64,000 bases of DNA from NCBI GenBank assembly GCA_001801025.1, contig MGWO01000013.1, forward strand, positions 202,476-266,475, read 5' to 3'. The stretch comes from Gallionellales bacterium GWA2_54_124. Its GTDB lineage: Bacteria; Pseudomonadota; Gammaproteobacteria; Burkholderiales; Gallionellaceae. Positions 2,531-52,622 of the stretch are shown piece after piece. The stretch's first letter is position 1; every line of letters starts with the position of its first letter. The notes under the pieces were generated by a model. That model was not told the origin of the DNA. It saw only the letters and a program-made list of their open reading frames with translations, and made no database searches. Position numbers and translations under genes: made by a program.

Positions 2531-3247
2531 CTATGCATTGCCTTGCCGCCTTCTAACCGCGTAACCGTTTCGGTAGCGCATATCAACCACCTGAATTTCA
2601 CGCTCGGCATCCCCCTGCGGCGCCAACCCGTAAGGATAGACCGCGATAAAGCGTGCCAGTCGCTGACTGAGCGCCTCACGCCCCAGCTCGACCACCATGT
2701 CGTTGCTCAATCGCAACTGCCATGCGTGGCGCGGCGACAGCGACAGTTGCTTCACCTGCAAATTCAAGGCCGCCAGTTGTGCGCCAAACTTCGCATATTG
2801 CTGCGCCACCTCGGCTGAAGTGCCTTCATATCCTGTAAATCTTGGCAACACCTGCATCGTCTCGGCTGTAAACACCTCGCCCTGCCTGTTCACCAAAGCC
2901 ACATCATTCCAACGTGCTAAAGCCTGATGTTCTTCAAACTGTACAACCAGCCCGTTCGGAAATTCACGGCGCACGCTGACATTACGTACCCAGGACAATT
3001 TCTCCAGTGAGCGCCGGAGTGTGTCGATATCCACGGTCAAAAAATTTCCCTGCACCACCTGCCTGACAACCGCCCTCACCTCATCGCTCATTACCCGCTC
3101 CGGCGCATTCGCCAGCCGGACACTCTTGATAGGCAGCAGCTTCGGCATATGAACTACGTAGTGAGCCCCGCCGTACAACACGACAACGATGCTGCAAAAA
3201 AACAGCATGCTGGCCATGCCGCGCAGCAGAGGCGCGTTATCCCACAT
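2531..3247 (-). CDS. ftsQ: Cell division protein FtsQ (POTRA domain)
   Basis: Single N-terminal TM plus POTRA-like region ([37 protein letters not shown]); dcw position. Confidence 0.93.
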
Positions 3248-5186
3248 GCGCCATTCCTAATACGCGCAACACCAGCTCATCAAAACTGATTCCCGCCTGA
3301 CGAGCGGCCATCGGCACCAGACTGTGGTCTGTCATCCCCGGCGAGGTATTAGCTTCCAGTACGTAAGGCTGGCCCTCTTCGCTCATCAGAAAATCCACGC
3401 GCCCCCAACCTTGTCCGCCAATCAGGGCAAATGCGGCCTTGGCCAGCCCCTGCATCTTTGCTTCACTCGCTGCATCCAGTCCGCTCGGACAGCGATAACA
3501 GGTATCGTCGCGCAGGTATTTAGCTTCAAAGTCATAAAATTCGTTGGCAGGCTCAATTTTGATCACCGGCAGCACCTGATCACCCAGAATTGCCACGGTA
3601 TATTCGCCGCCACCGATGAAGCGTTCCGCGATGACCAGAGGATCGTGACGGGCTGCCTCACGATAAGCCGCCTGCAACTCACCCGCGGCCTTCACCTTGC
3701 TGATCCCAACACTTGAACCTTCGTTGGCCGGTTTCACGAACAGCGGCAAACCCAGTTTCCCTATGACTTCCTGCGGCGAGCTGTGCTCACCTAGCATCAT
3801 AAAATCAGGTACCGGCAATCCACCCGCCTGCCAAACTAGCTTGCTGCGCCATTTGTCCATTCCCAGCGAAGACGCCATCACGCCGCTCCCCGTGTAAGGA
3901 ATACCCATCAATTCCAGTGCGCCCTGCACCGTACCATCCTCACCGAATCTACCGTGCAGCGCGATAAATACGCGATCGAATCCCTGATCTTGCAACTCAT
4001 GCAAATTTTGCTTAGCGGGGTCAAACGCATGTGCATCCACTCCGCTGCGCAGCAATGAAGCTAATACCGCAGCACCGCTCTTGAGTGACACTTCCCGCTC
4101 GGCTGAACGCCCGCCGAACAGCACGGCAACCTTGCCGAAAGCAGCAGGATTAAGGATAGAGGATTGAGGATTCAGCGTTTTAAAATCAGTCTTACTGTTA
4201 GCCATCTTTACGCTCGCCTCTCCGATGATTTTCACTTCAGGATGTAAATCCACCCCTGTTTGCGTCATGACCGTCTGCCTTACCTGACAAATCAGGGTTT
4301 CGATATCATCGGCCGTTGCGCTATTCACATTGACAATAAAATTGGCATGTTTTTCAGACACCTGTGCACCGCCAATTTTTTTACCCTTCAAGCCGCACTG
4401 TTCTATCAGACGCGCCGCGTAATCATTTGGCGGATTGCGAAAGACCGACCCGGCATTGGGCAGATTCAGCGGCTGACTGTTGATGCGTTTAGCCAGTAAA
4501 TCCTTAATAGTTTGGCGTGCGATCTGCCCGTCGCCCGGCGAAAAGGACAACCAGGCGCCGACGAGAAATTCTTCCGGGGAATGGGGAGTGGGGAGTGGGG
4601 AGTCACGGCTTTCCCACTTTCCACTTGCCACTTGCCACTGACTGCGCAATGCCACACTCCGATAGCCTATTTCGTATTCCTGCGGCGTTCTCACCTTCAA
4701 CTCGCCGCTGCGCGTTACCACCTGTACGCGCGTAACGTGCTGCCAGATTTCACTGCCATAGCAACCGGCATTCATCGCCAGCATGCCGCCCAGCGTCCCC
4801 GGTATCCCGGCGCAAAATTCCGCGCCGGCTAAATCATTGTTGGCGGCAAAGCGCGCAAGCTTCGCGCCCGGCACACCCGCCTGCACGTAGATCAGTCCGT
4901 CCTGCCGCATCGCAAGTTCTGTGAGTGCACCGTGCATCAACAGTACCGTGCCGCGCACACCGCCATCCCTCACCAGCAAATTACTGCCAAGACCCACCGC
5001 AACCAGTGGCTCGTCCAGTGGACGGCTGCACAAGTACACCCGTAAATCATCCATATCTGCAGGTTGATACACGCGATCCGCCGCACCACCCGCACGCCAG
5101 CTGGTATGACGGCGCATGGACTGATCAAGGCTCAGCTTGCCTCTCAGTACCGCTGCGATAAATTGTCCCGGCTCGCTCATATTCAT
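3237..5186 (-). CDS. murB-ddl: Uninterrupted MurB (UDP-N-acetylenolpyruvoylglucosamine reductase) - Ddl (D-alanine:D-alanine ligase) ORF
   Basis: 649 aa ORF; N-terminal MurB motifs ([13 protein letters not shown]-like [32 protein letters not shown]), C-terminal Ddl motifs ([38 protein letters not shown]); no stop between them. Confidence 0.93.
4146..4173. repeat. Heptamer tandem array, GGATT family (4 units)
   Basis: AGGATTA AGGATAG AGGATTG AGGATTC; encodes [10 protein letters not shown] in the MurB-Ddl linker. Confidence 0.95.
4576..4641. repeat. Two facing heptamer arrays inside murB (4+4 units)
   Basis: GGGGAAT (GGGGAGT)x3 - CACGGCTTTC - CCACTTT CCACTTG CCACTTG CCACTGA. Confidence 0.95.
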
Positions 5187-6583
5187 GTCTTTGCCATCTG
5201 TTTGACCGTCCCCGGCACATTGCCGATCGAACCTGCCCCCATCGTGACCACGACATCGCCGTCACGCGCCCATTGCATAATCGACTGCGGCATATCGGCA
5301 ATATGTTCGACAAAAATTGCCTCCGACTGCCCCGCCAGTCGTAAGGCGTGCATCATGGCGCGCCCATCTGCTGCAACCAGTCGTGCCTCGCCTGCGGCGT
5401 ACACTTCAGCGAGCAGCAAGGCATCTACACCGCACAGAATTTTCACAAAATCTTCGAACAGATCGCGTGTGCGCGTATAGCGGTGCGGCTGAAAGGCCAG
5501 CACCAGGCGGCGTCCGGGAAATGCGCCGCGCACGGCCGCCAAGGTGGCTGCCATTTCCACCGGGTGATGCCCGTAATCGTCGATCAGCGTGAAACTGCCG
5601 CCATCGGTCAGCGTAATCTCGCCATAACGCTGAAAACGTCTGCCGACGCCTTCGAATTCATCTAAGGCCGCAATAATAGCGTCGTCTGCTGCGCCGACTT
5701 CCAGTGCGATGGCGATAGCCGCCAGCGCATTCAATACGTTATGACGTCCCGGCAGATTGAGCGTGATTTCCAGATCACGGGGCGTGCCGTTCTGCCTGCA
5801 TTGCGCGGTAAAGCACATCTTGCCGCCCTGATGCCGTACATTGATGGCACGGATCTGTGCTTCTTCAGAAAATCCGTAGGTTGTCACAGGCTTCGTCACG
5901 CGCGGCAGAATCTCGCGAATATTCGCGTCATCCACGCACACCATTGCCCGCCCGTAAAACGGTAAGTGTTCAATAAAATCAATAAAAGCCTGCTTTAATT
6001 TTGCAAAATCGTGGCCGTACGTTTCCATATGGTCTTCATCGATATTTGTCACAACGGCCAGTATCGGCTGCAGATACAGGAAGGAGGCATCAGACTCATC
6101 CGCTTCAACGACGATAAATTCTCCGGTGCCCAGCTTCGCGTTCGTGCCGCTGCTGTTGAGCTTGCCACCGATCACGAAGGTCGGATCAAAACCGCCGCGC
6201 GCCAGCACACTGGCGGTCAGCGAGGTGGTGGTAGTCTTGCCGTGCGTACCCGCCACGGCAATTCCCTGACGCAGACGCATCAATTCCGCCAGCATCATCG
6301 CGCGCGGCACAACGGGGATATGCCTCGCTCGGGCGGCGACCACCTCAGGATTGTCCTGACTCACGGCGGTTGAGACCACCACCACATCGGCGCTGGTCAA
6401 ATTCACCTCGCTGTGTCCGATTGCAACGGAAACCCCTAACTCTCGCAGACGGTTTGTTGCCGCATTTTCTGCCAGATCGGATCCGCTTACGCTAAAACCC
6501 AGATTGAACAGCACTTCTGCAATACCGTTCATACCGGAGCCGCCGATACCCACAAAATGAATTTGTTTGATCTTGTGTCTCAT
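5183..6583 (-). CDS. murC: UDP-N-acetylmuramate--L-alanine ligase
   Basis: [29 protein letters not shown] motifs; start at MRHKIKQ (ORF opens at 6601). Confidence 0.97.
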
Positions 6584-7638
6584 TGTGCTAACTCCTTGCA
6601 TATGTTTGCCACATCCCCTGCCGCGTCCGTCTTAGCCAGACTGCGTGCCTGCTGCGCCATCGTCAGCAACTTTTCACGGCTGAGTTCCATCAACTGTTTT
6701 GCCAATTTCGCCGCATCAAGTTCAGTCTGAGGCAGCAAAATGGCCGCACCCTGTTCGCTCAAAAACCGCGCGTTGTGTGTCTGATGATCATCAACCGCAA
6801 ACGGAAATGGCACCAAAATACTGGCCACACCGGCGGCCGCGAGCTCTGCCACCGTAAGCGCACCCGAGCGGCAAATCACAAGATCCGCCCGTGCATAAGC
6901 GGCTGCCATATCGCCAATGAAGGACAGCACATCGGCCTCAACACCCGCGTTTTCGTATAATTTTGTCACTGCACCGTGGTGCTGCTTGCCGGTTTGGTGC
7001 ACGACATTCGGTCGCACGTCCACATCCAACAGCGCCAGTGCAGCTGGCATCGCCTCATTTAGTGCGCGCGCACCCAGACTGCCGCCGACGACCAGTACAT
7101 TCAAACGACCTGTGCGTGCGGCATATCTGTCGGCAGGCGCTTGTATTTCGGCAATGACACTGCGCACCGGATTGCCGCACCACTGTGCTTTCGGCAAAAC
7201 ATCGGGAAAGCCTGTCATCACCCGTGTCGCAAAACGCGCCAGTACCTTGTTGCTCAATCCTGCGACCGAATTTTGCTCATGTATCACTAGCGGCCGATGC
7301 AGTATCGCTGCCATCAGTCCACCCGGAAACGTGATATAGCCGCCCATACCTAACACGACATCCGGCCGGTGGCGGAAAATTGCGACCGCGCTTTGCCCGA
7401 GTGCAATGATCAAATTGACCGGTAGCATCAACTTTCGCAACAAGCCGTTACCGCGCAAGCCGGAAAATCTGACCAGCGCCATCGGATAGCCGTGTTTTGG
7501 CACCAGATCCGCTTCCATACTGTTCGGTGCGCCCAGCCAGGTCACCTGCCAGCCTTGTTCGCGCAGCAGATCGGCCACCGCGAGTGCCGGAAAGATATGC
7601 CCGCCCGTGCCGCCTGCCATGATCAGTATTGAACGGTT
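6580..7638 (-). CDS. murG: UDP-GlcNAc:undecaprenyl-PP-MurNAc-pentapeptide transferase MurG
   Basis: [43 protein letters not shown]; start at MNRSILIM (ORF opens at 7668). Confidence 0.97.
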
Positions 7639-7695
7639 CATAAATAGTAACCCGCTGAATGACCACAATCAGGCTCAACACAACAAGGTTTTACC

Positions 7696-7723
7696 TGAAT
7701 CATGAATCCTGAATCCTCGATCC
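7696..7723. repeat. Heptamer tandem array, TGAATCC family (4 units), murG-ftsW gap
   Basis: TGAATCA TGAATCC TGAATCC TCGATCC. Confidence 0.92.
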
Positions 7724-7729
7724 TGATCT

Positions 7730-8893
7730 TCATGCTGGCATCCCTCGTGCAATACGACGGTTTTCATAGTCGACGCGGAGCAATACGGCGGCGGCGATAC
7801 AATTGACCACCACGCCACTGCCACCGAAGCTCAAAAAGGGCAGTGTCAGTCCTTTGGTAGGCAACACGCCCATATTCACACCGATGTTGATCGTTGCCTG
7901 CACGCCGACCCACACCCCTATCCCTTGAGCGACCAGCGCCGAGTAATTCCGTTCCAAAAATGCGGCATGCCGTCCGATCTGCAATGCGCGTATCACGACC
8001 AGCGCGAACAAGCCAATCACACAGACCACGCCCACCAAACCCAATTCTTCTGCGATCACTGCCATCAGAAAATCGGTATGCGCTTCGGGCAGATAAAATA
8101 ATTTTTCAACGCTGCCACCCAGCCCTACGCCAAAACGCTCACCTCGCCCGAAAGCGATCAGCGCATGACTTAATTGATAGCCTTTGCCGTATGGATCAGC
8201 CCAGGGGTCCATGAATCCGATCACGCGTTGTAAACGGTAAGGCGACGATAAAATCAGCGCGGCGAAGGCCATCGGCAGCATAAACACCAGCAGGCCAAAT
8301 ACTTTTAAGTTAAATCCACCCAGCCAGAGCGTGCAAATAGAGATGGCCAGCACCACCACAAACGCGCCCATATCGGGTTCGAGCAGCAGCAGCCCACCGA
8401 CGACCGCCATCACGCCAAACATAGGCAGAAAGGTTTTGATAATCGAATTGCTCTCTCGCCCTTTGCGCACGGTGTAATCGGCGGCATACATCACGGCAAA
8501 CAACTTCATCAATTCTGAGGGCTGAAGGTTAATCACAAACAGCGACAACCAGCGTCGGCTGCCATTGACTTCGCGCCCGACATGGGGAATCAGCACCAGC
8601 ACCAGCAGGGCGGCACCCGCCACAAAGAGATAGGGCGAGTAGTTTTGCCATGTCTGCACTGGCACTTGAAAGGCCAGCGCGCCGGCAACCAATCCCACCG
8701 CGATGAACATGCTGTGCCGCATCAAATAATAGCTCGCTTGATGACCGGTAAATTTGCTACCTTCGGCCGTTGCGATTGAGGAGGAATACACCATCACCAA
8801 GCCCACCGACAGCAGCGCGATGAACACCCAGATCAGCAGCATATCGAACTGCACCTGAGGCGGCCTTGTGTGTGTTTTGACTAATGAGGCCAT
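7730..8893 (-). CDS. ftsW: Lipid II flippase/glycosyltransferase FtsW
   Basis: SEDS family polytopic protein; [51 protein letters not shown]. Confidence 0.97.
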
Positions 8894-47824: not shown

Positions 47825-47910
47825 GGGAAGTGGTCAGTAGTAAAACATGATGCAGACTCAAGAAAAGTGTATGGCTTTTCCCACTCACCACTTACTACTC
47901 ACCACTCACC
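47825..47910. repeat. Facing heptamer arrays between pilC and pilD
   Basis: GGGAAGT GGTCAGT AGTAAAA ... ACTCACC ACTTACT ACTCACC ACTCACC. Confidence 0.9.
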
Positions 47911-47920
47911 TCTCAAAAAT

Positions 47921-48787
47921 ATGAACTTACTCGATCTACTTGAATCATCCGCCCCGCTGTTTATCGGCATCTGCACGCTGCTGGGACTGATGGTCGGCAG
48001 TTTTTTAAACGTGGTCATTCATCGCCTGCCTAAAATGATGGAACTGGGGTGGAGGTCACAATGTGCCGAATTGCGCGGCGAAACACCTGTTGCAGGTGAA
48101 ACGTACAATCTAATGGTGCCGCGCTCCGCCTGCCCGCAGTGTCAGCACGCCATCAGTGCATGGGAAAACATCCCTGTGATCAGCTATCTGCTGCTGCGCG
48201 GCAAGTGTTCAGACTGTCATGCGGCCATATCCCCCCGCTACCCGATCATCGAAACTTTCAGCGGTCTGCTTTGCGGATTTGCCGCATTTCATTTCGGCTT
48301 CGGACTGACGTCCATCGCCGCACTTATACTGATCTGGGCCTTAATCGCGCTAACGGCGATCGACTTTGACACTCAGTTACTACCGGACGACATCACCCTG
48401 CCGCTGATCTGGGCCGGACTCGTGTTCAACCTGTACGGCGCTTTTACTTCATTGCACGATGCATTCTTAGGCGCCGTTTTTGGCTATCTCGCCTTATGGT
48501 CAGTCTTTTGGCTCTTTAAACTGATCACCGGCAAAGAAGGCATGGGCTACGGGGACTTTAAGCTGCTGGCCGCCTTAGGCGCCTGGCTGGGCTGGCAACT
48601 GCTGCCGCTGATCATCATCCTGTCTTCACTGGTCGGTGCCATCGTCGGCATCGCCTTAATCATCGCAGTCAAAAGAGGCCGCGAGATTCCCATTCCGTTC
48701 GGGCCGTATCTTGCCGGCGGCGGACTGATCGCACTGTTTTGGGGGCAGATACTGACACAAAGCTATTTGCAGCTATTGGCACCATGA
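47921..48787 (+). CDS. pilD: Prepilin peptidase/N-methyltransferase PilD
   Basis: GSFLNVVIHRLPKMME, CPQCQHAISAWENIPVISYLLLRGKCSDC; start at MNLLDLL after the repeat (ORF opens at 47867 inside the repeat). Confidence 0.95.
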   Translation: MNLLDLLESSAPLFIGICTLLGLMVGSFLNVVIHRLPKMMELGWRSQCAELRGETPVAGETYNLMVPRSACPQCQHAISAWENIPVISYLLLRGKCSDCHAAISPRYPIIETFSGLLCGFAAFHFGFGLTSIAALILIWALIALTAIDFDTQLLPDDITLPLIWAGLVFNLYGAFTSLHDAFLGAVFGYLALWSVFWLFKLITGKEGMGYGDFKLLAALGAWLGWQLLPLIIILSSLVGAIVGIALIIAVKRGREIPIPFGPYLAGGGLIALFWGQILTQSYLQLLAP

Positions 48788-52001: not shown

Positions 52002-52622
52002 CTATATAGTTTCTGCATTATCCATGAAACGGGCGGCAATCAGCCCGTTCACTGTGCCGAACAGCAGGGCGGCGGCGGCAAAAATGGGCATCAGGTAGGC
52101 GATCCCGGCATTCGGGATCAGCCACAGATACACCAGCGCCATCTGCCCTGCAATATGCGCAAAGGCCGCGCATACGCTGTGCGTGACAGGGCCGAACCAG
52201 CGCGGTGGCAGATGTTGCGCCAGTGCCAGCACCAGCAGGCTCAGCAGCGCACCGGTCAGCCCCAGAAAAAACCCCGGCGTTAAAAAGTTGCCGAACAACA
52301 AACTGCCGGCGAACACACGCAGCAGCGAAACCCATGCGGCCGTACGCCAACCGTAACGCGCCAGCACAATCAGCGTGACGATATTGGCAAGCCCGGGCTT
52401 CACCCCGGGCAAAGGCGATGGAATTGCCCCCTCCAGTATCGTCAAACCCAGTGCCACCGCCGCCATCCGCGCGATATGATGATCCTCTGCATTGGCGTGA
52501 AGCAAAATTCGGGAATCAGAATTCGGGATTCGGGATTCAGATTTTCCTGCATCCTGCATACCGGCTGCTGACACCTGCATCCTGCATCCTGCATCCTGCA
52601 TCTCAGTAGTTGAGGCTGTCAT
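52002..52622 (-). CDS. Gx transporter family / heptaprenyl diphosphate synthase component I-like membrane protein
   Basis: ILEGAIPSPLPGVKPGLANIVTLIVLARYGWRTAAWVSLLRVFAGSLLFGNFLTPGFFLGLTGALLSL; N-terminal about 40 aa encoded by a heptamer array, so the native start may be internal. Confidence 0.85.
   Translation of the reverse strand: MTASTTEMQDAGCRMQVSAAGMQDAGKSESRIPNSDSRILLHANAEDHHIARMAAVALGLTILEGAIPSPLPGVKPGLANIVTLIVLARYGWRTAAWVSLLRVFAGSLLFGNFLTPGFFLGLTGALLSLLVLALAQHLPPRWFGPVTHSVCAAFAHIAGQMALVYLWLIPNAGIAYLMPIFAAAALLFGTVNGLIAARFMDNAETI
52507..52602. repeat. Largest heptamer locus (5+8 units) at the 5' end of the Gx-family gene
   Basis: ATTCGGG AATCAGA ATTCGGG ATTCGGG ATTCAGA - TTTTC - CTGCATC CTGCATA CCGGCTG CTGACAC (CTGCATC)x4. 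Confidence 0.95.

Follow-up and report, generated by a model that had tools for sequence, protein, structure and literature searches.

Heptamer arrays of a hairpin-like class, probably tolerated in frame, at the start of a Gx-family gene and within other conserved genes of Gallionellaceae

The window analysed here is a stretch of 64,000 nucleotides in contig C13 of a 2.9 Mb Gallionellaceae genome, and the locus of interest lies among the genes for UbiX, a Gx-family protein, a NusG domain II protein (NusG_II) and RapZ. The Gx gene occupies 52002..52622 on the minus strand, and its family assignment, proposed in a first-pass annotation made from the letters alone, is borne out by a match to PF07456 (E=6e-40), with close homologues among named relatives in Gallionella, Ferrigenium and Sideroxydans. 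The NusG_II gene (PF07009; 52603..52983, minus strand) shares its final 20 nt with the start of Gx, the Gx ATG at 52622 overlapping the NusG_II stop.

Two opposed heptamer blocks with 13 units in total span 52507-52602, and the unit order given in the first-pass annotation stands up to direct reading of the sequence and to TRF, which independently detects both arrays. On the plus strand, the units at 52507-52541 are ATTCGGG, AATCAGA, ATTCGGG, ATTCGGG and ATTCAGA, and those at 52547-52602 are CTGCATC, CTGCATA, CCGGCTG, CTGACAC and four copies of CTGCATC. In the sense of Gx (minus strand), the 5' arm (52547..52602; four GATGCAG units, then GTGTCAG, CAGCCGG, TATGCAG and GATGCAG) begins immediately past the NusG_II stop codon and is separated by a spacer or loop (52542..52546; TTTTC on the plus strand, GAAAA on the minus strand) from the 3' arm (52507..52541; units of the type CTGAATC, CCGAATC, CCGAATT, CTGATTC and CCGAATT). 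The units are degenerate, the element has no GTAG at its start, and, as regards a G-quadruplex reading, the ATTCGGG arm holds by eye three GGG tracts only. Together the arms make up about codons 7-39 of Gx. The earlier annotation had the minus-strand reading frame start inside the array; the N-terminus that it quoted is indeed the one read from the ATG at 52622, but this ATG stands just upstream of the array, within the end of the NusG_II gene. The N-terminal 43 residues of Gx are modelled as unstructured, and the first helix is placed, at modest confidence, at residue 45.

NusG_II-Gx junctions were extracted from 81 distinct Gallionellaceae loci. In 23 of them the two genes overlap and there is no array: the shared stretch, TATGACAGCCTCAACTATTAA, codes for the last residues of NusG_II (YDSLNY, stop) and for the first ones of Gx (MTASTIK), which are followed directly by the conserved core LxTTAEDHHIARM. 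Two more loci have a 10-nt gap, and in the remaining 56, the window included, the NusG_II stop and the core are 37-227 nt apart, the insert lying after the stop at about codon 7 of Gx. Most inserts carry a period-7 signal, a few consist of other sequence (e.g., L085, L089, L022, L036 and L106), and in some carriers there is a single arm, or the insert is not made of heptamers. Because L265 and L267, two of the four outgroups taken from other families, also show the overlap without an array, the empty, overlapping junction is most simply read as the ancestral state. On a weakly supported NusG+Gx tree, the insert was gained or lost at least 20 times.

A second copy of the start region, called by a pattern over the last 11 codons, lies downstream of the insert in 11 of the 56 carriers (e.g., ATGACCAGCTCAACCATTAAA in L008), and the insert lengths of these 11 fall 5/4/2 over the three frames, which amounts to no frame constraint. 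Among the 45 carriers with no second start, by contrast, the insert is in frame with the ancestral ATG in 37 (binomial p=2e-11) and at 21 of 28 distinct insert lengths (p=8e-6), counts that are not fully independent, the loci being related. Thirty-two of the 45, the window included, are open throughout from the ancestral ATG, and the coding frame of these 32 inserts is stop-free while the other two frames contain stops. Given the 37 of 45 in frame and the unconstrained second-start carriers, translation of the array is the most likely case, and would give Gx a disordered N-terminal extension of 33 residues. The comparison of start sites in orthologues, which the first-pass annotation had suggested as a check, therefore speaks to the choice that it had left between a repeat-derived extension and a mis-predicted start: the ancestral frame is kept, and the extension is the alternative favoured. 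If translation of Gx instead began at the array's end or beyond it (e.g., at the TTG in ...AATTTTGCTT), the array would be an untranslated leader, and there is an in-frame TTG at that end. Moreover, in 13 of the 56 carriers the ancestral frame is not open and there is no clear duplicated start; these need a start of another kind, so that some lineages do begin Gx elsewhere than at the ancestral ATG, and new starts may be present in a few of the 13 as well (e.g., L022 and L036). An untranslated array, however, would not hold the frame as it is held here, in 37 of 45 against 4 of 11 with a second start, and a mis-predicted start is very unlikely. At the level of sequence, the junction comparison shows presence and absence of the element, an apparently ancestral absence, and conservation of frame with an internal control.

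It had further been suggested that changes in unit number shift the frame of Gx and act as a phase-variable switch. Tandem heptamers can slip, seven is no multiple of three, and the insert is out of frame in 8 of the 45 carriers; a free-running switch, however, would put about two thirds of the assemblies out of frame. In several of the out-of-frame carriers (L006, L033, L106, L022 and L036) the start has been lost or moved, and these are therefore not transient OFF states. Close relatives exactly one unit apart in length (95 vs 102 and 118 vs 125) do occur among second-start loci, and such 7-nt differences are confined to pairs in which a second start leaves the array untranslated in at least one member (L010 vs L008/L011; L045 vs L052), whereas translated arrays of close relatives differ by 0, 21, 39 or other multiples of three and are often equal in length (L071/L078, L100/L113 and L094/L096). 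With the degeneracy of the units in the window added to this, the suggestion of phase variation by unit change gains no support from the comparison between species, and a switch at this locus is very unlikely.

The Gx array is not the only one within a gene. In murB, paired arrays of GGGGAGT and CCACTTG lie in frame at 4576..4639 (minus strand), and a run of AGGATTG, also in frame, covers the MurB/Ddl junction at 4146..4172 (minus strand). MurB and Ddl form a single uninterrupted 649-aa reading frame in the window (3237-5186, minus strand), either a fusion or a junction that happens to be in frame, while a stop separates the two genes in the relatives checked. The same MurB loop, unstructured in the model (residues 185-203, pLDDT below 50), bears an insert of 54-108 nt in 18 or 19 of 22 same-genus orthologues, always a multiple of three in length, with units as different as GGATCGA, GAGAAGG, GTGAAAC, CAAGGTC and GGATTTG, and in some cases not heptameric (e.g., L147, L148 and L149). 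An essential gene would be expected to keep such inserts in frame anyway, and the MurB inserts therefore show tolerance and test nothing. In L155, MurB has an additional in-frame insert (SPQGGGRGCKATEVATTT) at another place. The MurB pattern is repeated in DnaE and in a BioH-like hydrolase, with the same site occupied, units differing by species and lengths that are always a multiple of three; the coding frame is stop-free in 20 MurB, 11 DnaE and 20 BioH-like inserts, and the other frames have stops. At the BioH-like site, some relatives have palindromes of other kinds, several of them starting with GTAG; those with GTAG stand at the codon position of the heptamer hairpin in L237, L238, L241, L242, L245 and L247, as if one class of element could replace another. 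In-frame arrays within genes of the window's genome are found at 147522-151079 and 342528-343349 of contig C13 and at 272046-274697, 274690-277989 and 486259-488259 of contig C7, with which loci L121, L131, L177 and L188 are listed; besides DnaE and the BioH-like hydrolase, the genes bearing arrays on these contigs encode a PD-(D/E)XK nuclease, a UvrD-like helicase and an ABC transporter ATPase.

The arms of the Gx array had been described as pairing in register. Such pairing is literally present in the window, but it is weak there, the four innermost unit pairs matching at 19 of their 28 positions (GATTCAG/CTGCATC 6, GATTCGG/CTGCATA 4, AATTCGG/CCGGCTG 4 and GAATCAG/CTGACAC 5). The predicted fold of the array is not significant against dinucleotide shuffles (z-score 0.18), and RNA folding of the single locus was dropped as evidence for a hairpin on that account. 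Across loci, the arms of one locus match each other better than they match arms of other loci, with p=5e-5 for Gx, MurB and the BioH-like site, which is the floor of 20,000 cross-locus permutations, and p=0.001 for DnaE; the permutation controls for purine/pyrimidine bias, and not fully for phylogeny or for a palindromic origin of the element. As own pairs exceed pairs across loci, the 5' and 3' arms are not independent. Arm pairing reaches significance only for the family of loci taken together, and not at the Gx locus of the window. The comparison also shows, again from sequence, a coding frame free of stops and arms that covary from locus to locus.

Complementarity that persists through sequence turnover, at identical codon positions filled across species, could also be a sign of functional RNA: a hairpin selected to control the stability or translation of the NusG_II-Gx message, with similar hairpins controlling other genes and the peptide as a by-product. 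The hairpin is, however, missing at the 23 of 81 empty Gx junctions, many relatives have an empty DnaE or BioH-like site or only a short insert there, and some carriers have a single arm only. The host genes have no common pathway, a search of Rfam gave no match, the fold in the window is not significant, and complementarity would result without selection from the arrival of a hairpin or from template switching. A selected RNA is thus an unlikely reading, and heptamer elements that are tolerated in frame are preferred to it.

In the 382 kb of contig C13, 15 strong period-7 arrays were counted, where a Markov-shuffled copy had 0 and other periods gave 0-3, and the excess of period 7 is not due to chance. 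The census of arrays covered 1.18 of 2.9 Mb; of its 28 clusters, about half are inside a predicted gene or touch one. Many kinds of unit are represented, and the units differ both among loci of the genome and among species at one locus. Within the window, a run of CCTGAAT (7694..7726, minus strand) falls in the gap that separates the gene at 6580-7668 from that at 7730-8893, a few nucleotides past the stop of the latter, and a run of CCACTCA (47881..47915, plus strand) lies just upstream of a plus-strand gene that starts near 47922. The census hints, on few arrays, at a preference for positions just after stop codons. Elsewhere in contig C13, long and pure intergenic runs of the AGTGGTA type (156800-156883, 12 copies; 340942-340986, about 6 copies) are the best candidates for length variation in the genome. 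At 359032-359607 (minus strand), a prepilin-like motif (GASLIELIMFIV) has an array just upstream of it, and a putative leader peptide would therefore be encoded by the array. Genome-wide homogenisation of unit type, which would give MurB and Gx of one genome the same heptamer, seemed persuasive by eye in two genomes, G021 and G020, but tested at p=0.115 and was dropped.

Degenerate heptanucleotide repeats are known from the P6b stem of the cyanobacterial tRNA-Leu intron, where two classes occupy the two sides of the stem and copy number changes while pairing is kept, in an intron and thus outside translated sequence. Within coding sequence, the Rickettsia palindromic elements (RPEs) and the intragenic GTAG/CGTC REPs are short palindromes inserted in frame into housekeeping genes, among them DnaE and RecB-type genes, to which they add 20-30 or more residues, and when intergenic they often lie just past stop codons (PMC3733652). 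The Gallionellaceae inserts in MurB, DnaE and the BioH-like gene resemble them in being in frame and stop-free, with every length a multiple of three, and in a palindromic structure that holds for the locus family (p=5e-5 to 0.001) and not for the window locus; the GTAG palindromes that replace the heptamer hairpin at the BioH-like site in some relatives add to the likeness with GTAG REPs. They differ in that each RPE or REP family has a recognisable consensus, whereas the units in Gallionellaceae vary by species and locus and the arms are tandem heptamers. Degenerate tandem heptamers are found genome-wide in Xanthomonas (GGGAATC) and in Nostoc/Anabaena (GGGGA(T/C)T), often as two opposed, stem-loop-capable arrays close together near the end of the upstream gene, and have been studied as G-quadruplexes; those of Xanthomonas are 89-93% intergenic, with one G-rich unit per genome (PMC4692102). 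Degeneracy and the period-7 enrichment of contig C13 are shared with these systems, whereas Gallionellaceae have many coexisting units and arrays in frame in conserved genes. Numerous sets of tandem heptamers across the genome are likewise described for the TAACTGA direct repeats of marine Beggiatoaceae (PMC4679880), which are of one fixed heptamer, nearly all direct and intergenic, with a post-transcriptional role proposed, in contrast to the varied, in-gene units seen here. By analogy, the element would work like RPEs and intragenic REPs and be built like the heptamers of Xanthomonas and Nostoc. Among the papers searched, there was none joining Gallionella and heptamer repeats, and none on topic, judged by title and abstract, for Gallionella and palindromic repeats.

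The window locus is probably one copy of a genus-wide class of hairpin-like heptamer elements, tolerated in the frame of Gx and not a switch. In elements of this class, two arrays of degenerate heptamers would form the arms, the 5' arm being as a rule rich in purines and the 3' arm in pyrimidines. A hairpin-forming element would have arisen directly past the NusG_II stop codon and, because the Gx ATG overlaps that stop, have become codons of Gx. Copies that were in frame and stop-free would have persisted, translated as a disordered tail before the first membrane helix, while in other lineages a duplication of the start region downstream of the array would have allowed escape from the frame constraint. 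The peptide is presumably made without having an essential role, and no observation requires a function for it. Slippage would alter the number of heptamers, and the arms would be kept complementary by intra-hairpin copying (template switching) or by replacement through new insertions. Recurrent insertion of hairpin-forming heptamers, tolerated in coding sequence only in frame, is the best reading of the whole, and in these iron oxidisers of the Gallionella type the inserts would most likely be translated as flexible tails or loops of otherwise normal proteins. A bolder proposal, put forward tentatively and at somewhat less than even chance, is that Gallionellaceae harbour an unrecognised class of hairpin-forming heptamers that repeatedly colonises the same codons of essential genes in frame, both arms being rewritten together by intra-hairpin copying or by new-element replacement, with loops of MurB, DnaE, Gx and other proteins continually rewritten through hairpin turnover at the level of DNA.

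For start predictors and phase-variation screens, loci of this kind carry a warning, as both will misread them; the puzzling start of Gx itself becomes decidable. The locus belongs to a set of heptamer hairpins within genes that extends across the genome, a context not visible in the first-pass annotation. The family would provide a comparative case of tandem-repeat hairpins that enter essential coding sequence and are held there by frame selection, for which the second-start lineages serve as a built-in control, and a system in which to study how complementarity between hairpin arms survives the turnover of their sequence.
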